Source of the DNA: Brevundimonas sp.
GTDB lineage: Bacteria > Pseudomonadota > Alphaproteobacteria > Caulobacterales > Caulobacteraceae
Assembly: GCF_024711105.1 (NCBI RefSeq)
Contig: NZ_JANJTL010000044.1
Location: 1 to 40,973, forward strand
Direction: 5' to 3'
Length of the DNA: 40,973 bases
The notes under the pieces are model-generated. The model ran no database searches. It was not told the origin of the DNA and worked only from the letters and a program-made list of their open reading frames with translations. The position numbers and the translations under genes are program-made. Positions 2,693 through 13,394 of the stretch are shown one piece after another (within the stretch, counting starts at the first letter, position 1; every line of letters begins with the position of its first letter).

Positions 2693-4237
2693 GTGAGGCC
2701 AGCGAGCGTCGATATTTCAGTGGATAAGCGTGGGGACGCCTGGCGCGTGGCGCTCGTCCTGACGCTGGCGCTCACCCTGGCCCGGCTCGTCGCCCTGTTC
2801 CTGACCCCGCTGGAGCTCTACCCGGACGAGGCGCAATACTGGCTTTGGTCGCGGGATCTGGCGTTCGGCTATTATTCCAAGCCGCCGATGCTGGCCTGGC
2901 TGATCGGGCTCACGACCGCCATCGGCGGCGACGGCGAGGCCTGGGTGCGGCTGTCCTCCCCCCTCCTGCACGCCGGCACGGGCCTGATCCTGTTCGAGGT
3001 CGGGCGAAGGTTGCACGGGCCCCGGGTCGGCCTGTGGTCCGCCGTCTTCTATGCGCTGATGCCCGGCGTGCAGCTCTCGGCGGGCGTGGCCTCGACCGAC
3101 GCGCCTCTGCTGTTCTTCGCCGCGCTCGGCCTGCTGGCCTATGTGGCGTTTCTCGCCGGCCCCTCGATGCGCCTGGCCGCCGCCTGCGGCCTTGCCGTGG
3201 GCGCCGCCTTCCTCAGCAAGTACGCCGCCCTCTACATCCTGCTGGGGGTCGGGCTTCACCTGATCTGGTCGCCCCAGGCCCGGACGTGCTGGACCTGGGG
3301 CCGGGCCCTCGGCGCCGTAGCGGGTCTGGCGCTCGTGGCGGCGCCCAATCTGGTGTGGAACGCGCTGAACGACTTCTCCACGGTCAGTCACACCGCGGAC
3401 AACGCCAATTGGCGCTGGGACGACCTGTTCCATCCGGTCGAGATGATCGAGTTCCTGGCCTCGCAGCTGATGGTGCTGGGGCCCGTACCCTTCGTCCTGC
3501 TGATCCTGGGCGCGTTCGCTGCCCTGCGCGCGCGGGCAAGCACGCCGGAGGCGGATCGCCTGCTGCTGAGCCTGGCGGTTCCTCCGGTCCTGCTGGTCAC
3601 GGTGCAGGCGCTGCTGTCGCGGGCCAACGCGAACTGGGCGGTCATCGCCTATGCGCCGGCCGTTGTTCTGGTCGCGGCCTGGCTGTTGCGCGACCACAGG
3701 CCGCGTCTCCTCTGGGGCGCGATCGCCTTCCAGGCGCTGGTCGCCGTCATGGTGCTGGTGCTGGCGATCTGGCCGCCGCTGGCCGACCGTATCGGGCTGG
3801 GCGGCGCCTTTAAGCGCGTGCGCGGCTGGGAGACGAGCGCCCACCGCATCCTCGACGCGGCCGAGGCTCAGGGCCCGCGCACCGTGGTCGCCGCGGACGA
3901 CCGCTTCCTGTTCAACAGCCTGGCCTACTACGGCCGCGACCGCCTCGCCGGCGACGATGCGCCGATCCTGAGGATGTGGGTCCGCGAGGCCTCGGCGAAC
4001 AACCAGGCCGAAGCGACCTCTCCGCTCACGCCCGAGCTCGGCGACCGGGTGCTGCTGGCGTCCACGGAGGTCCGGTTCCGGCATGAGTTCGTCGCCGACT
4101 TTGCGAGTTTCTCGGGCTGGCGAGACGTGTCGGTCCGCCTCGATCCCAGCCGCACCCGCGACGTGGCCGTCGGCCTGGGCCGGGGGTTCGCCCCCCGCCC
4201 GCGGGATCCCGTCACCGGCCTGCCCACACCGCCCTGA
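2693..4237 (+). CDS. GT39-family (ArnT/PMT-like) membrane glycosyltransferase
   Basis: This 514-residue polytopic inner-membrane protein has the fold of dolichyl/undecaprenyl-phosphate sugar transferases. The first membrane segment (about residues 18-38) is followed by the PDEAQYW motif, whose acidic pair is the catalytic mark of this family, and by YYSKPPMLAW. Around ten hydrophobic segments follow, then a soluble C-terminal part of about 120 residues. Known relatives move sugars from polyprenyl phosphate onto lipid A, glycans or proteins on the periplasmic side. The start is a GTG at 2693 with a strong GAGGAGG ribosome site at 2678-2684. Its 3' end overlaps the convergent msrA-like gene by 26 bases. 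The acceptor is not predictable. Confidence 0.85.
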   Translation: MRPASVDISVDKRGDAWRVALVLTLALTLARLVALFLTPLELYPDEAQYWLWSRDLAFGYYSKPPMLAWLIGLTTAIGGDGEAWVRLSSPLLHAGTGLILFEVGRRLHGPRVGLWSAVFYALMPGVQLSAGVASTDAPLLFFAALGLLAYVAFLAGPSMRLAAACGLAVGAAFLSKYAALYILLGVGLHLIWSPQARTCWTWGRALGAVAGLALVAAPNLVWNALNDFSTVSHTADNANWRWDDLFHPVEMIEFLASQLMVLGPVPFVLLILGAFAALRARASTPEADRLLLSLAVPPVLLVTVQALLSRANANWAVIAYAPAVVLVAAWLLRDHRPRLLWGAIAFQALVAVMVLVLAIWPPLADRIGLGGAFKRVRGWETSAHRILDAAEAQGPRTVVAADDRFLFNSLAYYGRDRLAGDDAPILRMWVREASANNQAEATSPLTPELGDRVLLASTEVRFRHEFVADFASFSGWRDVSVRLDPSRTRDVAVGLGRGFAPRPRDPVTGLPTPP

Positions 4238-4829
4238 GCCGCTCCGCCCGCCGGCAGCCCACGCTGTAGGCCTGGTAGCGGGCGGGATTCCGCCGCGCGA
4301 AGTCCTGATGATAGGCCTCGGCCGGCCAGAAACGCCGGGCCGCGCGCACCGGAGTGACGAAGCGATCCGCGCCGATGACGCGCACCGCCGCCCGCCGCGA
4401 GGCCTCCGCGATCGGCCTCTGGCTCTCGGTGGCGTAGACGGCTGAGACATAGGACGGGCCCTGATCGCAGAACTGTCCGTCCGCGTCGGTCACGTCGATC
4501 ATCCGCCAGAAGCGGTCCACCAGCTGGCGGTAGGTCACCCGCCCGCTGTCGTAGGTGACCCGCACCGCCTCGACGTGACCGGTGCCGCCGCGCACCACCT
4601 GGGCGTAGGACGGGTCGCTGACATGGCCGCCGGTGAAGCCGGACTCGGCCTCGATGACTCCGTCGATCTGCTCGAAGTTGCGCTCGATGCTCCAGAAGCA
4701 GCCGCCGGCGAACACGGCGGTGCGCTCTTCGCCGCGAAGGGGCTGGCGCGGCCGCTCGCTCTGGGCGCGGGTGTCCGAGCAGGCGGCCAGCGCCACGAGG
4801 ACGGCGACGACGGCGGCGGGAAGTCTCAT
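4212..4829 (-). CDS. msrA: peptide-methionine (S)-S-oxide reductase, lipoprotein form
   Basis: This 205-residue enzyme reduces methionine-S-sulfoxide in oxidised proteins. Residues 1-17 form a lipoprotein signal with lipobox LAAC (Cys17), so the enzyme is predicted to be anchored in the cell envelope rather than cytosolic. The catalytic GCFW motif is at residues 43-46 (Cys44), GHVE at 84-87, the YHQDF motif at 173-177, and a likely resolving Cys192 near the C-terminus. The acidic motif region reads FCDQGPSY in place of the more usual GNDxGxxY, which is a modest deviation. The ATG at 4829 is chosen over an upstream in-frame start because it begins the signal peptide and has GAGG just upstream. 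It is convergent with the GT39 gene. Confidence 0.92.
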   Translation of the reverse strand: MRLPAAVVAVLVALAACSDTRAQSERPRQPLRGEERTAVFAGGCFWSIERNFEQIDGVIEAESGFTGGHVSDPSYAQVVRGGTGHVEAVRVTYDSGRVTYRQLVDRFWRMIDVTDADGQFCDQGPSYVSAVYATESQRPIAEASRRAAVRVIGADRFVTPVRAARRFWPAEAYHQDFARRNPARYQAYSVGCRRAERLRAVWAGR

Positions 4830-4963
4830 GGGAACCTCGCGGGGGACCCCGAAGCTACGTCCGGCGGACACGCGCGGACGCGTCGCATCCTACACCCGCT
4901 TGCCATGCGGGAACGCCCGCATTAGGAAGCGCGCTCGCTCTGACCGGGCCCGCCCGGTACGCC

Positions 4964-5053
<90 letters not shown>

Positions 5054-5146: not shown

Positions 5147-5530
5147 TCAGAGCTCGGCGAGCGCCGCTTCGAGCTGTTGGCCGACCGCGCGGGCGTGCTC
5201 CAGCAATGCCGGGTTATCCACCGCCGCCATGGACGCGGCAGGATTCACCACCGCGACCTCGACGCTCTGGTCTGTCTGCTGGACGATGACGTTGCAGGGC
5301 AGCACGACGCCGATGTGGGGCTCCATCTCCAGCGCCTGGTGGGCCATGGTCGGGTTGCAGGCGCCCAGGATGCGATAGGGGCGGAAGTCCTGGCCGATCT
5401 TGGCCTTGAGCGTGCCGGTGACGTCGATCTCGGTCAGGACGCCGAAGCCGTGGCGGGCCAGGGCCTCGCGGGTGCGCTCGATCACCTCCTCAAAGGCGCC
5501 GGGCACGCGGCGCGCATGGAAATAGGTCAT
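5147..5530 (-). CDS. DUF302-domain protein
   Basis: This 127-residue soluble protein matches the DUF302 family along its whole length. Two cysteines, Cys58 (in LGACNP) and Cys79 (in VLPCNV), stand in the conserved core. The family has no firmly assigned reaction, but members often lie beside sulfur-oxidation or redox genes. The ATG at 5530 overlaps the TGA of the upstream ArsR-type gene as ATGA, and AGGAG lies just upstream; this start is preferred to one 36 bases earlier. It is the last gene of a four-gene minus-strand operon (adaptor, pump, repressor, DUF302). A role in thiol or persulfide handling is inferred only from the neighbours and the cysteines. Confidence 0.85.
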   Translation of the reverse strand: MTYFHARRVPGAFEEVIERTREALARHGFGVLTEIDVTGTLKAKIGQDFRPYRILGACNPTMAHQALEMEPHIGVVLPCNVIVQQTDQSVEVAVVNPAASMAAVDNPALLEHARAVGQQLEAALAEL

Positions 5531-5874
5531 GGCTTGTCTCCTGAAGGCTTGCCGAAGATCTCGCACAGCAGCCCGATCACCCGGGCCGCGGCCGGGTCGG
5601 CGATGCTGTAGTAGACGGTCTGGGCCTCACGCCGGGGCGTGATGACGCCCTCCTCGCGCAGGCGCGCCAGATGCTGGGAGCAGGCCGACTGCGACAGGCC
5701 GGCGAAGGCGGCCAGCTCGCTGACCGCGGACTCTCCGTCGCTGAGCCGGCACATGAGCATCAGCCGCTGCTCGTTGGCGAACAGCCGCATCAGCCGCGCG
5801 GCCGGGGCGGCCTGGGCCTCCAGCCGGGCGAGCGCCTCCGGCGTGGCGGCGGCGGGCAGTCGGGCCTGGGTCAT
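5527..5874 (-). CDS. ArsR/SmtB-family repressor, BigR/SqrR-like
   Basis: This 115-residue winged-helix repressor has its recognition helix in SQSACSQHLARLREEG (residues 61-76) and a beta-wing with AQTVYYSI (84-91). Cys42 (in LMCRL) and Cys104 (in GLLCEIFG) match in position the redox pair of BigR, YgaV and SqrR (about residues 41 and 107), which form a disulfide or polysulfide bridge with reactive sulfur and then release DNA. Metal-binding motifs of the ArsR or SmtB type are absent. Its TGA overlaps the DUF302 start and its ATG overlaps the pump stop, both as ATGA. The likely target is the repeat-rich promoter at 10119-10155, so the operon should be autoregulated. The sulfur-sensing role is inferred from the cysteine pair and the divergent sqr. 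Confidence 0.87.
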   Translation of the reverse strand: MTQARLPAAATPEALARLEAQAAPAARLMRLFANEQRLMLMCRLSDGESAVSELAAFAGLSQSACSQHLARLREEGVITPRREAQTVYYSIADPAAARVIGLLCEIFGKPSGDKP

Positions 5875-8800
5875 GCGGCGGTCTCCTCGGCGGCGGTGTC
5901 GCCCCCCTTCAACGCCACATAGATCGCCGGGATCACCAGCACCGTCAGCAGCGTCGAGGACATCAGCCCGAACAGCAGCGAAATCGCCAGTCCCTGGAAG
6001 ATGGGATCGAACAGGATCACCGCCGCCCCGATCATGGCCGCCAGCGCGGTCAGCAGGATCGGCTTGAAGCGGATCGCGCCGGCCTCAAGCAGCACGTCCT
6101 TCAAAGGCCGCCCGGTCTTGCGGGCGTGCTCGATGAAGTCGACCAGGAGGATCGAGTTCCGCACGATGATGCCAGCGAGCGCGATGAAGCCGATCATGGA
6201 GGTGGCGGTGAAGGGCGCGCCGAACAGCATGTGGCCGATCACGATGCCGATCAGGGTGAGTGGGATGGGCGTCAGGATCACCAGCGGGAGGCGGAAGTCC
6301 CGGAACTGGGCGACCACCAGGATGTAGATGCCGACCAGCGCCACGCCGAAGGCCGCGCCCATGTCGCGGAAGGTCACCCAGGTGATCTCCCATTCGCCGT
6401 CCCACAGGACGGTCGGCCGGCTTTCGTCGTCGGGCTGGCCGTTGAGGCGGACCTCGGGCTCGGGCAGGTCGCTCCAGTCCTCGGCCCGGATCGCGCCGTC
6501 CACCGCCAGAATGCCGTAGATCGGCGCCTCGTAGCGGCCGGCAAGCTCGGCCATGACCATCTCGGCGTCGCGACCATCCCGACGATAGACCGGATAGCTG
6601 GCCAGTTCGCTGCGGGCCTCGACCACCTCGCCCAGCTCGACCAGCCGGGGGGCGCCGTCGAGGGTGGTCACCGCCACGGGCAGGGTGGCCAGGTGCTCGC
6701 TCCAGGTGCGTTCGGACTGGGGCAGGCGCACGGCGATCTCCACCGGCGTGCGTCCCTCGTCGCGCGCGGCGTAGCCCAGGGTCGAGCCGCCCATCAGGGC
6801 CGCGACCGTGTCGTGCACCTGACGCTCCTGCAGTCCGAACCGCTCGATCCGCTCGCGCAAGGGCGACAGCCGCAAGGTCGGCCGGCGCTCGCCGAAGCTG
6901 TTGTCGACGTCGACGATCGACGGCTCGGCGCGGAAGATCGCCTCGAGGCGACGGGCGACAGCGCGGCGCGTCTCGGCGTCGGGCCCATAGACCTCGGCCA
7001 GCAGGGTGGCCAGCACGGGCGGTCCGGGCGGGGCCTCGACGACCTTGAGCGAGGCGCCGTCCGGCAAGGCCAGCTCGGCCAGCCGCTCGCGCAGGTCGAT
7101 GGCGATGGCGTGGCTGGCGCGGTCGCGCTCGCCCTTGTGGCTAAGCATCACCGCCAGGTCGCCCTGCTCGGGCCGCTCGCGCAGGAAGTAGTGCCTGACG
7201 AGGCCGTTGAAGTTGAAGGGGGCTGCGGTCCCGGCATAGCTCTGGATGGCCACGACCTCGGGAACCGACTGCGTCAGGGCCGCGGCCGCCGCCAGGGTGC
7301 GTTCGGTGACTTCCAGGCTCGTGCCCTCGGGCATGTCGAGCACGACCTGGAGTTCGGATTTGTTGTCAAACGGCAGCAGCTTCACCGGCACGGCGCGCAT
7401 GCCGAACATCGACATGGCGAGCAGCGTCGCGACCCCAACAGCGCCGAGGAACATCCAGGCGCTGCGGCGCGTGCGGATGACCCTGCTGGCCCAACGCCGA
7501 TAGAGCCGTCCGATCCAGCCTTCGCTCTCCCCGTGGTCATGGCCGGCGGCCAGGGCGCGGCGCGCCAGCCGGATCATCAGCCAGGGCGCCAGCACGACGG
7601 CCACGAAGAAGGAGAAGACCATGGCCGCCGAGGCGTTCACTGGAATCGGCGCCATGTACGGGCCCATCAGGCCGGAGACGAACAGCATCGGCAGCAGCGC
7701 CGCCACCACCGTCAGGGTCGCCACGATGGTCGGATTGCCCACCTCGGCCACGGCCTCCACGGCGGCCTCGGCCCGGCTGCGTCCGTCGTTCATGGCCCAG
7801 TGCCGGGCGATGTTCTCGATGATGACGATGGCGTCGTCCACGAGGATGCCGATCGAGAAGATCAGGGCGAACAGACTGACCCGGTTGATGGTGTAGCCCA
7901 TCAGGTGCGAGGCGAAGAGCGTCAGCAGGATGGTGGTCGGGATGACCACGGCGGTCACCGCCGCCTCCCGCCAGCCGATGGCGAAGCCGATCAGGACGAC
8001 GATCGAGACGGTGGCCAGGCCCAGGTGGAAGAGCAGCTCGTTGGCCTTCTCATTGGCCGTCTCGCCGTAGTCGCGCGCGATCACGACCTCGAGGCCTTCG
8101 GGGATCAGCGAACCGCTGAGCTGGTCGAGCCGCGCATGCAGGTCGCGCGACAGAACCACGGCGTTGGCGCCGGGCCGCTTGGCGACGGCGACGCTGACGG
8201 CGGGCGTGCGGCTCCACCCCGCTTCGCCGCGCGCATAGTGAGCGACCCGCGCCTGGTCCTCGCGCGGCGCCAGGACGACATCGGCCACGTCGCGCAGATA
8301 GACGGGCTGGCCCGTGACCGAAGAGACGGTGAGCAGCGAGGCGTCCTCGGGCGTGCTTAGCCGCTCGCCGATCCTGAGGGCCGTGGCGGAACCCTCCTCG
8401 CGCACCACGCCGGCGGGGAAGCTGCGGTTCGCCTGGCTGACAGTCTCGAGCAGGGACGACAGGGGGACGCCACGCAGGCTCATGCGGGCGGGGTCCGGCT
8501 CGACGCGGATTTCAGACGGTCGGCCGCCGACGATGAAGGTCTGGCCGACATTGTCGACCTTGGCGATCTCGGCGCGGAGGCGCACGGCGACCTCGTAGAG
8601 GGCCTGATCGCTCCAGCGGCCCGCCGCTTCGGGGGACGGCGTGAGGGTCAGGACCAGGGCCGGCACGTCGTCGATCCCCCGGGTGGTGATGATCGGCTCG
8701 CTGACGCCCACGGGAATGTCGCCGTAGTTGGCGCGGATGCGTTCGTGCACACGTACGGCGGCGTCGTCCGGGTCCGACCCCACCTCGAAGCGGGCCGTCA

Positions 8801-9086
8801 CCATCACCCGGTCGTCCTCGGCCTGGGTGTAGACGTGCTCCACCCCGTCGATGCTGTTGACGATGGCCTCAAGCGGCTCGGCGACCAGTTCGACAGCGTC
8901 CGACGCGTTGAGGCCGGGGGCGGCGACCATCACGTCCACCATGGGCACGCTGATCTGGGGCTCTTCCTCGCGGGGGATGCTGAGCAGCGCCATCAGGCCC
9001 ACGGCGATGGCCGCCAGCAGCATCAGGGGCGTCAGGGGAGAGTTGAGGGTCGCCTGCGTCAGGCGACCGGACAGGCCCAACCGCAT
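5871..9086 (-). CDS. RND-family efflux permease
   Basis: This 1071-residue inner-membrane transporter is of the proton-driven RND family (AcrB/MdtB type). It has an N-terminal membrane helix, two large periplasmic domains, and the proton-relay Asp pair in the fourth helix (Asp417-Asp418 in GILVDDAIVIIEN). The C-terminal half repeats the fold, ending with the usual FDPIFQGLAISLLFG stretch. The start overlaps the adaptor stop as TGATG, with GGAGG seven bases upstream. There is no outer-membrane factor gene in the operon, so a TolC homologue from elsewhere would be needed. The substrate is unknown; co-operation with a persulfide-type repressor and divergent sqr suggests a sulfur-derived or thiol-linked compound, but a drug or metal substrate is not excluded. 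Confidence 0.93.
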   Translation of the reverse strand: MRLGLSGRLTQATLNSPLTPLMLLAAIAVGLMALLSIPREEEPQISVPMVDVMVAAPGLNASDAVELVAEPLEAIVNSIDGVEHVYTQAEDDRVMVTARFEVGSDPDDAAVRVHERIRANYGDIPVGVSEPIITTRGIDDVPALVLTLTPSPEAAGRWSDQALYEVAVRLRAEIAKVDNVGQTFIVGGRPSEIRVEPDPARMSLRGVPLSSLLETVSQANRSFPAGVVREEGSATALRIGERLSTPEDASLLTVSSVTGQPVYLRDVADVVLAPREDQARVAHYARGEAGWSRTPAVSVAVAKRPGANAVVLSRDLHARLDQLSGSLIPEGLEVVIARDYGETANEKANELLFHLGLATVSIVVLIGFAIGWREAAVTAVVIPTTILLTLFASHLMGYTINRVSLFALIFSIGILVDDAIVIIENIARHWAMNDGRSRAEAAVEAVAEVGNPTIVATLTVVAALLPMLFVSGLMGPYMAPIPVNASAAMVFSFFVAVVLAPWLMIRLARRALAAGHDHGESEGWIGRLYRRWASRVIRTRRSAWMFLGAVGVATLLAMSMFGMRAVPVKLLPFDNKSELQVVLDMPEGTSLEVTERTLAAAAALTQSVPEVVAIQSYAGTAAPFNFNGLVRHYFLRERPEQGDLAVMLSHKGERDRASHAIAIDLRERLAELALPDGASLKVVEAPPGPPVLATLLAEVYGPDAETRRAVARRLEAIFRAEPSIVDVDNSFGERRPTLRLSPLRERIERFGLQERQVHDTVAALMGGSTLGYAARDEGRTPVEIAVRLPQSERTWSEHLATLPVAVTTLDGAPRLVELGEVVEARSELASYPVYRRDGRDAEMVMAELAGRYEAPIYGILAVDGAIRAEDWSDLPEPEVRLNGQPDDESRPTVLWDGEWEITWVTFRDMGAAFGVALVGIYILVVAQFRDFRLPLVILTPIPLTLIGIVIGHMLFGAPFTATSMIGFIALAGIIVRNSILLVDFIEHARKTGRPLKDVLLEAGAIRFKPILLTALAAMIGAAVILFDPIFQGLAISLLFGLMSSTLLTVLVIPAIYVALKGGDTAAEETAA

Positions 9087-10105
9087 CAGCGCGCCTCCGC
9101 CGGCAGGACCACGTCGCCTTCGGCGAGGCCGGAGAGAACCTCGACCCGTCCGTCCGGTAGGTCGGGGCCCAGCTGGACCGGCGCTTCGACCGCCACGCCG
9201 CCGGGGCCGACGGTGCGGACGTAGTCGATGCCAAACCGGGTCGCGACGAATCGCCGGGGAATGGCGATGGCCTGCCGCTCCCCGAGAGACAGCCTCACCT
9301 CCAGGCGCTGGCCGACGCCGCGCTGGTCCAGCCCGGTGACCGCCACGTCGGCCACGACGCGGCCGGCCGTCGCCGCCGGATAGATCTGGGTGATGACGCC
9401 GCCCTCGTTCAGGCCAGCGATCTCGACCGTCTGACCCAGCCCCAGGGCGCGGCCCTGGGCCTCCGGGACCTCCAGACGCACCACGAGCGGTCCGGCGGTG
9501 ATGGTGGCCACGGACTGGCCGGGGGTCACGACCGAGCCCTCCGGCACGTCGGCGGTGAGGACCTGGCCCGCCGTCGGCGCCAGTATGCGCCCCTGGGTTC
9601 CCAGCTCCGCGGTGGCCGCCCGCTGGGCGCGCGCCGCGCGCGCCTGGCCCTCGGCCGCCTCATAGGCGGCGCGCGACTGGTCCAGTCGGGCCTGGGCGTA
9701 GATTCCCTGGTCGAACAGGGCCTGAATTCGCGACAGGTCCGCGCGCGCCCGTCCGGCCTCGGCCTCGGCCGCCGCGACGAGCGCCTCCTGGGCCGCGGTC
9801 TGCAGGCCGATGCGGTCATCGACGACCACCCCGATCAACTGGCCCTCGCGCACGAGATCGCCCTCGCGGACGTTCAGGCGGACCAGCACGCCGCCGATCC
9901 GGGCGCGCGCTTCGCCCAGGTCGCGCGACGCTATGACGGCGGGGACCGCCTTCGTGTCGGGAATGGCCGCGCGCGTGACCGTCAGCCGCTCGCCTTCGGC
10001 CACGGCCGGCGCCGGCCCCGCGTCCTCATGACGCCCGCAGCCAGCCAAGGCCACGGTCCCGAAGACCAGTCCCACAGCGACCACGCTGGCGGAGAATGTG
10101 CGCAC
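9086..10105 (-). CDS. RND periplasmic adaptor (membrane fusion) lipoprotein
   Basis: This protein of about 339 residues is the adaptor that links the RND pump to an outer-membrane channel. A lipoprotein signal ends in the lipobox LAGC. A biotinyl-lipoyl half (GGVLVRLNVREGDLV), an Ala/Arg-rich alpha-helical hairpin, a second lipoyl half and a beta-barrel follow. Start choice: an in-frame ATG at 10120 would leave only about six bases after the predicted promoter start and has no ribosome site. The GTG at 10105 has GGAG (10112-10115) six bases upstream and gives a 21-base leader, so it is preferred. It is the first gene of the operon, overlapping the pump start by one base. Confidence 0.88.
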   Translation of the reverse strand: MRTFSASVVAVGLVFGTVALAGCGRHEDAGPAPAVAEGERLTVTRAAIPDTKAVPAVIASRDLGEARARIGGVLVRLNVREGDLVREGQLIGVVVDDRIGLQTAAQEALVAAAEAEAGRARADLSRIQALFDQGIYAQARLDQSRAAYEAAEGQARAARAQRAATAELGTQGRILAPTAGQVLTADVPEGSVVTPGQSVATITAGPLVVRLEVPEAQGRALGLGQTVEIAGLNEGGVITQIYPAATAGRVVADVAVTGLDQRGVGQRLEVRLSLGERQAIAIPRRFVATRFGIDYVRTVGPGGVAVEAPVQLGPDLPDGRVEVLSGLAEGDVVLPAEAR

Positions 10106-10118
10106 GAGCGGCTCCATC

Positions 10119-10155
10119 ATTAGCTTGCGCTAATATTAGGAGATGCTAAATCTCC
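10119..10155. promoter_or_regulatory. Overlapping inverted repeats: likely ArsR-type operator
   Basis: Perfect inverted repeat ATTAGC-TTGC-GCTAAT lies at 10119-10134. A second, TTAG-N6-CTAA, lies at 10136-10149, nested with GGAGAT-N5-ATCTCC at 10139-10155. They cover the start region, -10 and spacer of the leftward pump promoter, where a repressor would block polymerase. This AT-rich block stands out in GC-rich surroundings. The ArsR-type protein encoded in the same operon is the obvious candidate to bind. Confidence 0.7.
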
Positions 10156-10160
10156 TGCAA
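10133..10160 (-). promoter_or_regulatory. Sigma70-type promoter of the adaptor-pump operon
   Basis: On the minus strand TTGCAG (10160-10155) and TAATAT (10138-10133) are separated by 16 bases. Transcription would start near 10126, which supports the GTG start of the adaptor at 10105. The -10 element is embedded in the inverted repeats described for the operator. Confidence 0.6.
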
Positions 10161-10198
10161 GCCCCGCCTGAGGGTTGGTCCGTCGCGGTCTCCCCACC

Positions 10199-10212
10199 TT
10201 GATCCAGGTCAA
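10199..10212 (+). promoter_or_regulatory. FNR/FixK-type box upstream of sqr
   Basis: TTGATCCAGGTCAA matches the FNR/FixK consensus TTGAT-N4-ATCAA at nine of ten positions, and the flanking bases extend it to CTTGA-N6-TCAAG. Its centre lies about 41 bases before a start near 10247, the usual activating position, and that places the sqr leader at about 23 bases if translation starts at 10270. This suggests oxygen- or redox-dependent activation of sqr by a regulator not necessarily in this window. Confidence 0.72.
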
Positions 10213-10269
10213 GGCCGCCGGCGCCGGCTGGCCCGAGGCTGAGGGGTGTGGACATGGATGGAGGTTGGC

Positions 10270-11556
10270 GTGACCAAGCCCGTCGTCGTTGTGCTCGGAG
10301 CCGGTCTCGGCGGCGTCATAGCCGCCTATGAAATCCGCCAGGTCCTGGGGGATCGCGCAGAGCTGGTCGTGGTGTCGAAGGGCGACACCTTCCACTTCAC
10401 CCCCTCCAACCCCTGGGTCGCCGTCAACTGGCGAAAGCGCGACGCGATCGAGGTGTCCCTGCCGCCGGTCATGGCCCGCAAGGGAATCCGGTTCATCGGC
10501 CAGGGCGCCCGCAAGGTCGATCCCGCCCATAGCCGGCTGGAGCTCGATGACGGCCAGGTCCTGGCCTACGACTACCTGGTAATCTCGACCGGGCCCGAGC
10601 TGGCCTTCGACGAAATCCCGGGACTCGGTCCGGACGGCAACACCCAGTCGGTCTGCCACGTCGGCCACGCCGTCGAGGCCAGCGACGCCTTCGCCGAGTT
10701 GGTGGCCAACCCCGGTCCGATCGTCGTCGGGGCGGTCCAGGGCGCGTCCTGCTTCGGGCCGGCCTATGAGTTCGCGATGATCCTGGACACCGAGCTGCGC
10801 CGCCGTCGGGTGCGCGATCGGGTCCCCATGACCTTCGTTACCTCCGAGCCCTATGTCGGCCACCTGGGCCTGGACGGCGTCGGCGACACCAAGGGCCTGC
10901 TCGAAAGCGAGATGCGCCAGCGGCACATCAAGTGGATCACCAATGCGCGTGTCACCTCGGTCGACCCCGGGCTGATGCACGTCGAGGAGGTCGGCGGCGA
11001 CGGCCAGGTCAAGGCTACGCACGACCTGCCCTTCAAGTTCTCGATGATGCTGCCGGCCTTCCGGGGCGTCGAGGCGGTGCGCGGCGTCGAGGGTCTGACC
11101 AATCCGCGCGGCTTCATCCTGGTGGACAAGCACCAGCGCAACCCGACCTATCCGAACGTCTTCGGCGTCGGGGTCTGCATCGCCATTCCGCCGACGGGCC
11201 CGACGCCGGTGCCGGTCGGGGTGCCCAAGACGGGCTTCATGATCGAGAGCATGGTCTCGGCCACGGCCGCCAACCTGGAGCAGCTGATCGCCGGCAAGGC
11301 GGCGACTCATGAGGCGACCTGGAACGCCATCTGCCTGGCCGACTTCGGCGACGGCGGCGTGGCCTTCATGGCCCAGCCTCAGATCCCGCCGCGCAACATC
11401 AACTGGTCGGCCAGCGGCGGCTGGGTCCACGCCGCCAAGATCGCGTTCGAGAAGTACTTCCTCCACAAGGTCCGGTCGGGCCAGAGCGAGCCGATCTACG
11501 AGAAGCTGGCCCTCGACCTGATCGGCGCGCCGAAGCTGCGCCAGACCGTCCACTGA
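10270..11556 (+). CDS. sqr: sulfide:quinone oxidoreductase, type I
   Basis: This 428-residue flavoprotein oxidises sulfide and passes electrons to membrane quinone, producing polysulfide or persulfide. The N-terminal FAD motif is GAGLGG. The three catalytic cysteines of type I enzymes are all present: Cys129 (QSVCH), Cys161 (GASCFGPAYEF) and Cys355 (NAICLADFG). The spacing fits the Acidithiobacillus enzyme (128, 160, 356). The C-terminal amphipathic part (WVHAAKIAFEKYF) should bind the membrane. The GTG at 10270 is preferred because GGAGG (10260-10264) lies five bases upstream; in-frame GTG 10246 and ATG 10258 are alternatives. It diverges from the RND/ArsR operon and is followed by a DUF2892 gene. 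Likely a detoxification or electron-donor route. Confidence 0.93.
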   Translation: MTKPVVVVLGAGLGGVIAAYEIRQVLGDRAELVVVSKGDTFHFTPSNPWVAVNWRKRDAIEVSLPPVMARKGIRFIGQGARKVDPAHSRLELDDGQVLAYDYLVISTGPELAFDEIPGLGPDGNTQSVCHVGHAVEASDAFAELVANPGPIVVGAVQGASCFGPAYEFAMILDTELRRRRVRDRVPMTFVTSEPYVGHLGLDGVGDTKGLLESEMRQRHIKWITNARVTSVDPGLMHVEEVGGDGQVKATHDLPFKFSMMLPAFRGVEAVRGVEGLTNPRGFILVDKHQRNPTYPNVFGVGVCIAIPPTGPTPVPVGVPKTGFMIESMVSATAANLEQLIAGKAATHEATWNAICLADFGDGGVAFMAQPQIPPRNINWSASGGWVHAAKIAFEKYFLHKVRSGQSEPIYEKLALDLIGAPKLRQTVH

Positions 11557-11573
11557 CAACCGGAGCCGCCGCC

Positions 11574-11780
11574 ATGAACGTCGACAAGGCCGTGTTCGTC
11601 TTCGCCGGGCTGATCGTCCTGACCAGCGTGGCGCTCGCCCGCTGGGTCAATCCCGCCTGGATCCTGCTGGCTGTCTTCGCCGGCCTCAACATGATCCAGG
11701 CCGCCTTCACCGGCTTCTGTCCGGCGGCGATGGTGTTCAGGCGACTGGGCTGCAAGCCGGGAACGGCTTTCCCCTCGTAA
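11574..11780 (+). CDS. DUF2892 small membrane protein
   Basis: This 68-residue protein has two hydrophobic helices (about 7-23 and 28-46), followed by GFCP and a second Cys (Cys49, Cys60). It matches the DUF2892 family, also seen as the membrane part of YgaP-type rhodaneses. It starts 17 bases after sqr, with GGAG upstream, so it is probably co-transcribed. The usual rhodanese domain is missing here. Members are common beside sulfide oxidation genes, and a role in sulfur handling at the membrane is inferred from that. Confidence 0.85.
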   Translation: MNVDKAVFVFAGLIVLTSVALARWVNPAWILLAVFAGLNMIQAAFTGFCPAAMVFRRLGCKPGTAFPS

Positions 11781-12431: not shown

Positions 12432-13394
12432 ATGACCCTCGTCAGCTTTCCCCAGGCCTCGCAGGGCGCTGGACACCGTCTCGATCCCGAAGCCTTCCAC
12501 CGACGCCTGGCCCGATGGAACCACCGGCGCCTGGACCCGACTACGCCCCACGACGGCTGGGCGGCGGACGCGCGCGCCGATGCGGAGATGACCCTGGTCG
12601 AGGGCGCTTGGGTCGAAGCCTTCCGCCAGGAGATCGCGCCGCTGGTCGCCGAGGCGCCGTCCGACGTCGAAGGCTTTATTGCCTGGTTCGAGGCCCTGAT
12701 AGACACCGGTCCCGGCCAGAATGACCCGCTCTTTCCCTGGCTGGCCGAGGAAGCGTCGCTTGAGGAAATGCGCTGGTTCCTGCTCCAGGAAGTGGCCGGC
12801 GAGGCGGGCTTCGAGGACCTGGTCGCTATGGCCCAGGTGAAAATGCCGACGCGGCCCAAGCTCGAGCTGGCCCGCAACTACTGGGACGAGATGGGCCGCG
12901 GTAACGAAGGCGGCATGCACGGGCCGATGCTCGATAGGCTGGCGCGTGCGCTGGACCTGCATCCGACCCTGGACGGCACCGTCTGGCCTTCGCTGGCGCT
13001 AGGAAATTGCCTGGTCGCCTTCGCGACGACCCGACGTTACGCCTATCACGCCCTGGGCGCGCTGGGCGCCGTCGAGCTTACCGCCCCCTGGCGGGCCGCC
13101 CATGTCGCGGCGGGCCTGAAGCGGCTGGGCGTCGGCCCGGAGCGGAAGTACTTCGCCCTGCACGCCACGCTGGACGTCGAGCATTCGAAGGCCTGGAACG
13201 CCGAAGTCCTGCGGCCTCTGATGGAGCAAGATCCGAGCCTCGGTCGATCGCTGGCGGAAGGCGCCGTCATGCGGCTGCTGTCCGGGGCCCGGTGCTTCGA
13301 AGCCTATCGCGCTGTGCTGTGGTCGAGGGTCCCCAACGTGCGAGCCCCGGGCCTGATCCTGATCGAGCCTTCTAGAGAAACCCCAGCCGCTTGA
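12432..13394 (+). CDS. iron-containing redox enzyme, heme-oxygenase-like fold
   Basis: This 320-residue, mainly helical protein resembles the heme-oxygenase-like diiron oxidase group (Haem_oxygenas_2, iron-containing redox enzyme family). Candidate metal ligands are Glu120/Glu124, Glu153 and His163 (in WDEMGRGNEGGMHGPM), and Asp248 and His251 (in HATLDVEHSKAW). Characterised members carry out oxidative N- or C-C bond chemistry, but the reaction here is unknown. The ATG at 12432 is chosen because the EcfG-type promoter ends just upstream; the ribosome site is weak. The 3' end overlaps the convergent HAD gene by 23 bases. The promoter suggests induction in general stress. Confidence 0.78.
   Translation: MTLVSFPQASQGAGHRLDPEAFHRRLARWNHRRLDPTTPHDGWAADARADAEMTLVEGAWVEAFRQEIAPLVAEAPSDVEGFIAWFEALIDTGPGQNDPLFPWLAEEASLEEMRWFLLQEVAGEAGFEDLVAMAQVKMPTRPKLELARNYWDEMGRGNEGGMHGPMLDRLARALDLHPTLDGTVWPSLALGNCLVAFATTRRYAYHALGALGAVELTAPWRAAHVAAGLKRLGVGPERKYFALHATLDVEHSKAWNAEVLRPLMEQDPSLGRSLAEGAVMRLLSGARCFEAYRAVLWSRVPNVRAPGLILIEPSRETPAA

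Follow-up and report, generated by a model that had tools for sequence, protein, structure and literature searches.

The window analysed here is the whole 40,973-nucleotide contig NZ_JANJTL010000044.1 of Brevundimonas sp. (GCF_024711105.1), and the subject of the work is its divergent locus at 5147..11780, in which a gene for a sulfide:quinone oxidoreductase (SQR, gene sqr) faces an efflux pump of the resistance-nodulation-division (RND) type, together with the wider clade of the RND permease. The layout given in the original prediction was borne out by the list of open reading frames and by Pfam: the six genes lie where they had been placed, in the minus-strand order adaptor, RND permease, ArsR-type repressor and DUF302 protein, with overlaps of 1, 4 and 4 bases, facing sqr and a DUF2892 gene that begins 17 bases 3' of sqr (Table 1). 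Matches over the gathering score were obtained for DUF302, HTH_5 (the ArsR protein), ACR_tran (the RND permease), HlyD_3 (the adaptor), Pyr_redox_2 and YgaP-like_TM, the last being PF11127, which the prediction had named DUF2892. Of the possible sqr starts, GTG 10270 has the best ribosome site (GGAGG at 10260-10264), and for the adaptor GTG 10105, preceded by GGAG, is likelier than the first possible start at 10120; the divergent gap is 149 bases to 10120 or 164 to GTG 10105, in keeping with the predicted value of about 165.

Table 1. Genes and predicted sites of the locus, in the numbering of the window
Feature	Position	Strand	Basis and details
DUF302 protein, 127 aa from ATG 5530, last gene in the pump operon	5147..5530	-	PF03625, 88.5 bits
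ArsR-type repressor, SqrR/BigR/HlyU/YgaV group	5527..5874	-	PF01022; codons of Cys42 5749-5751, Cys65 5680-5682, Cys104 5563-5565
RND efflux permease, 1071 aa, zero cysteine	5871..9086	-	ACR_tran, 496 bits
Periplasmic adaptor (membrane fusion protein), lipobox-like LAGC	9086..10120	-	RND_mfp TIGR01730, 121.2 bits, cut-off 94.9
Putative operator 1, TTAG-CTTGCG-CTAA	10120..10133		palindrome search
Putative operator 2, TTAG-GAGATG-CTAA, 16 bp from operator 1	10136..10149		palindrome search
FNR/FixK-type box TTGATCCAGGTCAA	10199..10212		motif search
Type I sulfide:quinone oxidoreductase, 428 aa from GTG 10270 (open frame from GTG 10246)	10270..11556	+	3sz0 match
YgaP-like transmembrane protein (DUF2892), 68 aa, Cys49 and Cys60	11574..11780	+	PF11127, 40.1 bits

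The best solved match of the sqr product was 3sz0 (phmmer, E 2e-145, aligned over 1-420, with three matched cysteines), which we take to be the type I SQR of Acidithiobacillus ferrooxidans, whose three cysteines are catalytic. The matched residues are Cys 129, 161 and 355 when numbered from GTG 10270 (codons 10654, 10750 and 11332), and by the full-length match and these three cysteines the product is a type I SQR. The permease reaches the cut-off of no NCBIfam RND model listed, multidrug or CusA/CzcA included: RND_permease_2, of the hydrophobe/amphiphile efflux type (HAE-1), scored 422.6 against a cut-off of 1250, yet was the top family by rank, and TIGR00914, of the heavy-metal efflux type (HME; CusA/CzcA), scored 275.2 against 701.45. 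The Asp pair of the RND proton relay, which in AcrB is D407/D408 in transmembrane helix 4, is present as D417 and D418, invariant across 13 aligned permeases. Among the best solved matches are 6vej, presumably TriC, and MexK, and the multidrug permeases MexK, CmeB and MexB are among the best relatives; the TriC/MexK group is nevertheless only distantly related to the window permease, and we know of no sulfur linkage in it. The pump operon of the window also lacks an outer-membrane factor (OMF), as do triABC and mexJK.

Orthologues of the permease at 59% identity or more were found in 29 of 101 genomes (its own and 100 relatives), with the next best at 37% and the others at 32% or less among the matches listed, while the nearest named permease, among the best 80 of 591 matches, is that of Peiella sedimenti (96%). 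In a reduced tree of 79 permeases, 38 clade members group with a support of 0.987, the control L059 joins the distant L240 within the wider group, and, among the distant permeases (about 38-47% identity), L223-L229 (43-45%) appear as a sister group. For L223-L229 the open frames are long, at about 1200-1310 codons, and the sulfur neighbours that were looked for are all missing. In L058 (genome G013), L151, L159 and L200 the permease coding sequence is either divided between frames or interrupted by an in-frame stop, reflecting assembly error or decay. The mean number of cysteines per permease is 0.43 in 106 clade members, 1.29 in 21 controls and 1.9 in 20 distant members; this depletion is weak evidence, because RND permeases are poor in cysteine anyway. 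Matches to the permease at E <= 1e-150 were also found in 47 plasmid records, of which 33 show at least 60% identity.

The gene neighbourhoods were surveyed in 28 same-order loci, the 80 named loci (best 80 of 591), 20 loci of the class without linked sqr, 20 distant loci and 21 control RND loci hand-picked from the genome-wide permease match list; one strain contributes both a named and a same-order locus (L061 and L035), and the ArsR counts are tblastn hits to the window repressor, by which unlike repressors are missed. The expectation that the clade would prove linked to sulfur genes elsewhere was upheld, and the cysteine pair of the repressor and the operator recur as well. In the same-order loci the neighbours were sqr (25 of 28), DUF2892 (25), ArsR (26), rhodanese (15), OMF (10), DUF302 (10), thioredoxin (7) and TauE (1); sqr is missing from three loci, of which two are on short contigs (L032 and L048) and one has a full stretch of 19 kb (L057). 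The named loci gave sqr 54, DUF2892 70, ArsR 71, rhodanese 38, thioredoxin 22, OMF 19, TauE 12, CydB 10, CydA 9 and DUF302 5 of 80; here 54/80 overstates the general sqr rate, since these loci are the best matches of an alignment whose members mostly have sqr close by, and several of them are closely related to one another (e.g., Bradyrhizobium). By contrast, the 21 control loci had sqr 0, DUF2892 0, rhodanese 0 and ArsR 1. An OMF gene, rightly predicted to be absent from 5147-11780, is thus nearby in a part of both sets. Among the class loci without linked sqr, DUF2892 was found in 13, ArsR in 12 and rhodanese in 2, and among the distant loci sqr was found in 3 and at least one of ArsR, sqr, DUF2892 and rhodanese in 10. 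The frequent neighbours in the named loci are sulfur or sulfide-tolerance genes (rhodanese, thioredoxin, TauE, cytochrome bd). The placement of sqr varies by locus: it may be divergent, may precede the pump in the same orientation or may follow it, a variety that favours selection over frozen synteny. A carboxymuconolactone decarboxylase-family gene is a further frequent neighbour (19 of 80 named loci, e.g., L075 4312-4701).

The co-occurrence of the two functions was estimated in a class sample of 385 genomes, with thresholds of E <= 1e-150 for the permease and E <= 1e-100 for type I sqr. The permease clade was present in 30 genomes (the match in one of the class genomes, G441, being full-length at 45% identity) and type I sqr in 14; the pump was found in 11 of these 14 against 1.1 expected (Fisher p 3e-11, kinship ignored), and in the 11 genomes with both the genes lie at most 2 kb apart in nine, 9 kb apart in one and on different contigs in one. 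Type I sqr on the same contig within 10 kb in 10 of the 30 pump genomes is a fairer estimate than that from the named loci. The pump accompanies ArsR and DUF2892 oftener than sqr, and other SQR types may replace type I sqr in some loci. The coupling of the pump clade to a sulfide/sulfane-sulfur regulon is, in our judgement, strongly supported by comparative genomics, and the module is probably a sulfide/sulfane-sulfur response unit with a repressor switch that sqr and the pump appear to share.

The best solved relatives of the repressor are 13ct/6o8l (PDB: Transcriptional regulator, ArsR family; E 2e-21), which we take to be the SqrR of R. capsulatus, followed by HlyU, NolR, YgaV and BigR. Its NCBIfam label is ArsR/SmtB, and the BigR equivalog NF040642 was not reached (68.7 bits against 155), as is the case for the repressors near the pumps of P. 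denitrificans and of plasmid pISP1 (85.9 and 80.1 bits, respectively). The cysteines of SqrR are C41 and C107. Two conserved cysteines, Cys50/Cys116, are also described for sHdrR (PMC12423496). A corresponding pair was defined as a first cysteine at the column of the window C42 and a second one either at window column 108, where SqrR has its canonical cysteine, or four residues before that column (C104). An ArsR hit lies within 5 kb of the permease in 97 of 108 loci, and in 93 of the 97 at least one ArsR carries the pair, the exceptions being L071, L072, L094 and L133; the early second cysteine occurs in at least one ArsR of 47 of the 97 loci, and the canonical column is used in other loci. 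The early position appears, from the alignment, to prevail in Caulobacterales and Sphingomonadales, and since four residues make about one helical turn, the shift should leave the cysteine facing the same side of the last helix. A third cysteine, Cys65, lies in the SQSACSQHL segment of the helix-turn-helix in the window repressor and 12 others (two from one strain), whose bearers look in the alignment like a Brevundimonas-like group. The ArsR/SmtB label is one reason to consider for the pump a role as a heavy-metal exporter of the CzcA/CusA kind, controlled by an ArsR that senses metal, with sqr as a bystander, and a copper-type P-type ATPase gene does occur in the stretch around the pump in 6 of the 80 named loci (one member checked); with the repressor cysteines at or near SqrR-type positions, the TIGR00914 score so far under its cut-off (275 vs 701) and the linkage to sqr and DUF2892 far above the control, this explanation is very improbable.

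Two TTAG-N6-CTAA palindromes were found in the window against 0.02 expected, and these sites of the divergent promoter are the sole ones in the 2.69 Mb assembly. In the loci that carry this palindrome, it lies 14-43 bases before the projected adaptor start in 10 and 348-394 bases before it in 6; of the spacings from 0 to 20 tried, TTAG/CTAA occurs in the upstream regions at 6 only. A related palindrome, ATAT-N12-ATAT, was found in 57 of 102 upstream regions, with a block-shuffle mean of 0.88 and a maximum of 3 (100 shuffles), and at other spacings in 1 region at 11, 0 at 13 and 29 at 14. The window sites share the inner part of ATATTAG-N6-CTAATAT, the form found in close relatives, and they are 16 bp apart, as are the repeats of ATAT-N12-ATAT in L076, L081, L084 and L134 (18 bp in L108).

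The same promoter is predicted to carry an FNR/FixK regulon box (motif TTGAY-N4-RTCAA), found once in the window against 0.03 expected and also upstream in close relatives. Such boxes number 11 in the genome, versus 1 for the reversed control; three of the others separate a NarK-like transporter gene (below cut-off) from ftrB, and one separates moaA from a solute-binding-protein gene. TTGA-N6-TCAA is present in 26 of the 102 upstream regions (0-3 at other spacings) and the strict box in 15 (shuffle mean 0.12, maximum 1). Low oxygen may thus be proposed as the main signal, with the module belonging to an FNR/FixK anaerobic response and the ArsR acting as a secondary brake, and the box itself, the four other boxes at the NarK-like gene/ftrB and moaA/solute-binding-protein gene pairs, and the microoxic induction of B. 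diazoefficiens bll5771 and bll5772, reported together with that of blr5777 and blr5778, speak for it (PMC6515984). However, the strict box is far rarer before the pump than ATAT-N12-ATAT (15/102 vs 57/102), and the B. diazoefficiens genes are marked there as outside the direct FixK2 regulon (PMC6515984); a leading role of oxygen is unlikely. The gene order in Bradyrhizobium japonicum (L080), i.e., RND, adaptor, ArsR, sqr, thioredoxin, DUF2892, DUF302 and a confirmed ccoG, fits the numbering of the bll5771 series, and by gene order alone bll5771 would be a member of the pump clade.

Two further loci show the pump amid other sulfur functions. The conjugative plasmid pISP1 of Sphingomonas sp. MM-1 (L265) has genes for sqr (72% identical), rhodanese, OMF, DUF2892, ArsR and cytochrome bd around the pump; the module there includes cydABX and cydD, and an integrase gene lies about 1 kb away. 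In P. denitrificans (L263), the 21 kb locus has a single ATAT-N12-ATAT, which precedes by 53 bases an operon of a metallo-beta-lactamase (MBL) protein, DUF2892, YeeE and a sulfurtransferase, within the pump cluster. Against the dioxygenase part of Blh the MBL protein scores 570.6 bits (cut-off 625), and for the nearby ArsR the best family is BigR. Just beyond the pump of P. denitrificans PD1222 (L263 12672-14021) an FAD enzyme gives a weak type III SQR match (204 bits, cut-off 525). Operons of this Blh/BigR type (e.g., MBL-DUF2892-YeeE-DUF6691-sulfurtransferase of P. denitrificans) share with the window an ArsR of the same group and DUF2892; in P. denitrificans ATAT-N12-ATAT stands in front and the RND pair comes 2 kb later, whereas the window has the TTAG-N6-CTAA variant, and the output differs, being sqr and an RND pump in the window and a dioxygenase with YeeE-type transporters in the Blh-type operons. 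A genome without another outlet for sulfane sulfur was considered and ruled out, with relatives of the P. denitrificans MBL protein (E <= 1e-20) in 34 of 46 genomes, the own genome included.

The claim that an RND pump dedicated to sulfur stress would be new proved only partly right, in that an H2S-induced sqr-RND operon and a note of RND neighbours precede it. In Azospira suillum PS, the genes Dsui_3440-3443 (an unknown gene, an efflux pump, SQR and an RND adaptor) form one operon that was highly expressed under H2S and had a fitness effect in Bar-seq (P 0.0001-0.0005), and its authors suggest the export of metal sulfide (PMC5358917). The operon resembles the window in its RND permease, SQR and RND adaptor, the likeness resting on gene content as described, and differs in organism and gene order and in that the term ArsR is absent from the main text of that report (PMC5358917). 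Dsui_3441 was not among the 120 matches listed in a protein search with the permease of L230, a locus of Frateuria terrea. That ArsR-type regulators of sulfane sulfur neighbour RND pumps is stated in one sentence of section 2.1 of PMC12423496. The sqr-pump link is real and widespread, and was glimpsed in print earlier. E. coli YgaVP likewise combines a SqrR/BigR-like ArsR with a YgaP protein, the operon as described having neither sqr nor an RND pump, and the ygaV mutant is more sensitive to antibiotics (PMC9774250); the rhodanese domain of YgaP is missing from the YgaP-like protein of the window.

Several observations weigh against the reading of the module as a sulfide/sulfane-sulfur response unit, or limit it. 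ArsR, sqr, DUF2892 and rhodanese are all missing in 7 of the 80 named loci (four on short stretches), in 6 of the 20 class loci without linked sqr and in 10 of the 20 distant loci, seven of these ten being the sister group L223-L229. Type I sqr at E <= 1e-100 is not found in 19 of the 30 pump genomes, which counts against strict SQR coupling, and therefore the cargo of the pump may not be the SQR product. At the promoter, no more than 16 of 106 loci have TTAG-N6-CTAA, and the genome likewise holds two sites for its reversed control, so that the place of the window sites, not their number, is informative; exact ATAT-N12-ATAT is lacking in 45 of the 102 upstream regions, in the window and in pISP1, the palindrome of P. 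denitrificans does not stand directly before the pump, and no sigma-70-like promoter was found in 9900-10500. The window repressor has the first cysteine, with its second, Cys104, four residues early and no cysteine at the canonical SqrR position. Moreover, the relative of the Blh dioxygenase in the own genome (NCBIfam dioxygenase part, 362.9 bits, cut-off 625) is encoded elsewhere, and export is therefore not the sole outlet for sulfane sulfur. Deletion of the whole Azospira operon left the H2S oxidation rate unchanged (PMC5358917), and thus the operon is dispensable for oxidation itself.

The mechanism that we propose for the sulfide/sulfane-sulfur response unit is likely for the repressor by homology, its chemistry being modelled on SqrR, BigR and SoxR. 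The dithiol repressor (Cys42 and Cys104) would bind the two palindromes, which lie side by side in the divergent promoter, and would repress both arms; on exposure, sulfide would give rise to polysulfide and persulfide, sulfur would bridge the two cysteines, and the repressor would leave the DNA. Its release would induce sqr-DUF2892 and adaptor-RND-arsR-DUF302 together, and we infer such co-induction of both arms, with a factor of the FNR/FixK type adding induction at low oxygen. SQR would pass electrons from H2S to quinone with the formation of polysulfide, and the sulfane sulfur would be handled by the YgaP-like membrane protein, elsewhere also by rhodanese and thioredoxin. The pump may then clear the product from the periplasm or the membrane via an outer-membrane channel encoded elsewhere, its cargo being most likely, under this mechanism, hydrophobic sulfane sulfur: long polysulfide, S8 or organic polysulfide.

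A sulfane-sulfur species as the pump substrate is our leading guess, held tentatively and with less than even confidence. Under the same regulon, the pump may instead be a general or multidrug exporter induced by sulfide, with quinones, metal-sulfide complexes or other toxic products that arise in sulfide poisoning as its cargo, and this comes close to an even chance: MexK, CmeB and MexB are among the best solved relatives, many pump loci without sqr retain ArsR and DUF2892, and further RND transporters were also up under H2S in Azospira (PMC5358917). The permease, however, reaches no NCBIfam multidrug or CusA/CzcA model at cut-off, and the frequent neighbours are sulfur-relay genes, not drug genes. 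A sulfane-sulfur cargo and a general or metal-sulfide cargo appear about equally likely. It is rather doubtful that the RND clade is, across Alphaproteobacteria (with sulfur-linked relatives in Gammaproteobacteria), dedicated to the export of sulfane sulfur (polysulfide, S8, low-molecular-weight persulfides) as an outlet of the SQR/persulfide pathway, under a dithiol repressor in which, in Caulobacterales and Sphingomonadales, the second sensing cysteine is displaced by one turn of the helix.

The disposal of SQR-made polysulfide or S8 at the bacterial membrane is poorly known, and to our knowledge no RND pump has an established sulfur substrate; none was found among the listings and passages of a literature search. 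The recurrent module, which is also found on plasmids, offers with its defined promoter and repressor a clean experimental handle. It links an efflux pump to both sulfide exposure and low oxygen, and thereby bears on reports of H2S raising antibiotic tolerance (PMC9774250).

As to the flanks of the locus, a gene for a peptide methionine sulfoxide reductase (PMSR) with a signal-like N-terminus (4212-4871) and a tRNA-Ser (4964-5053) lie just beyond the DUF302 gene, and downstream of the DUF2892 gene there is a gene for a Haem_oxygenas_2 family protein, an iron-containing redox enzyme (12432-13394).

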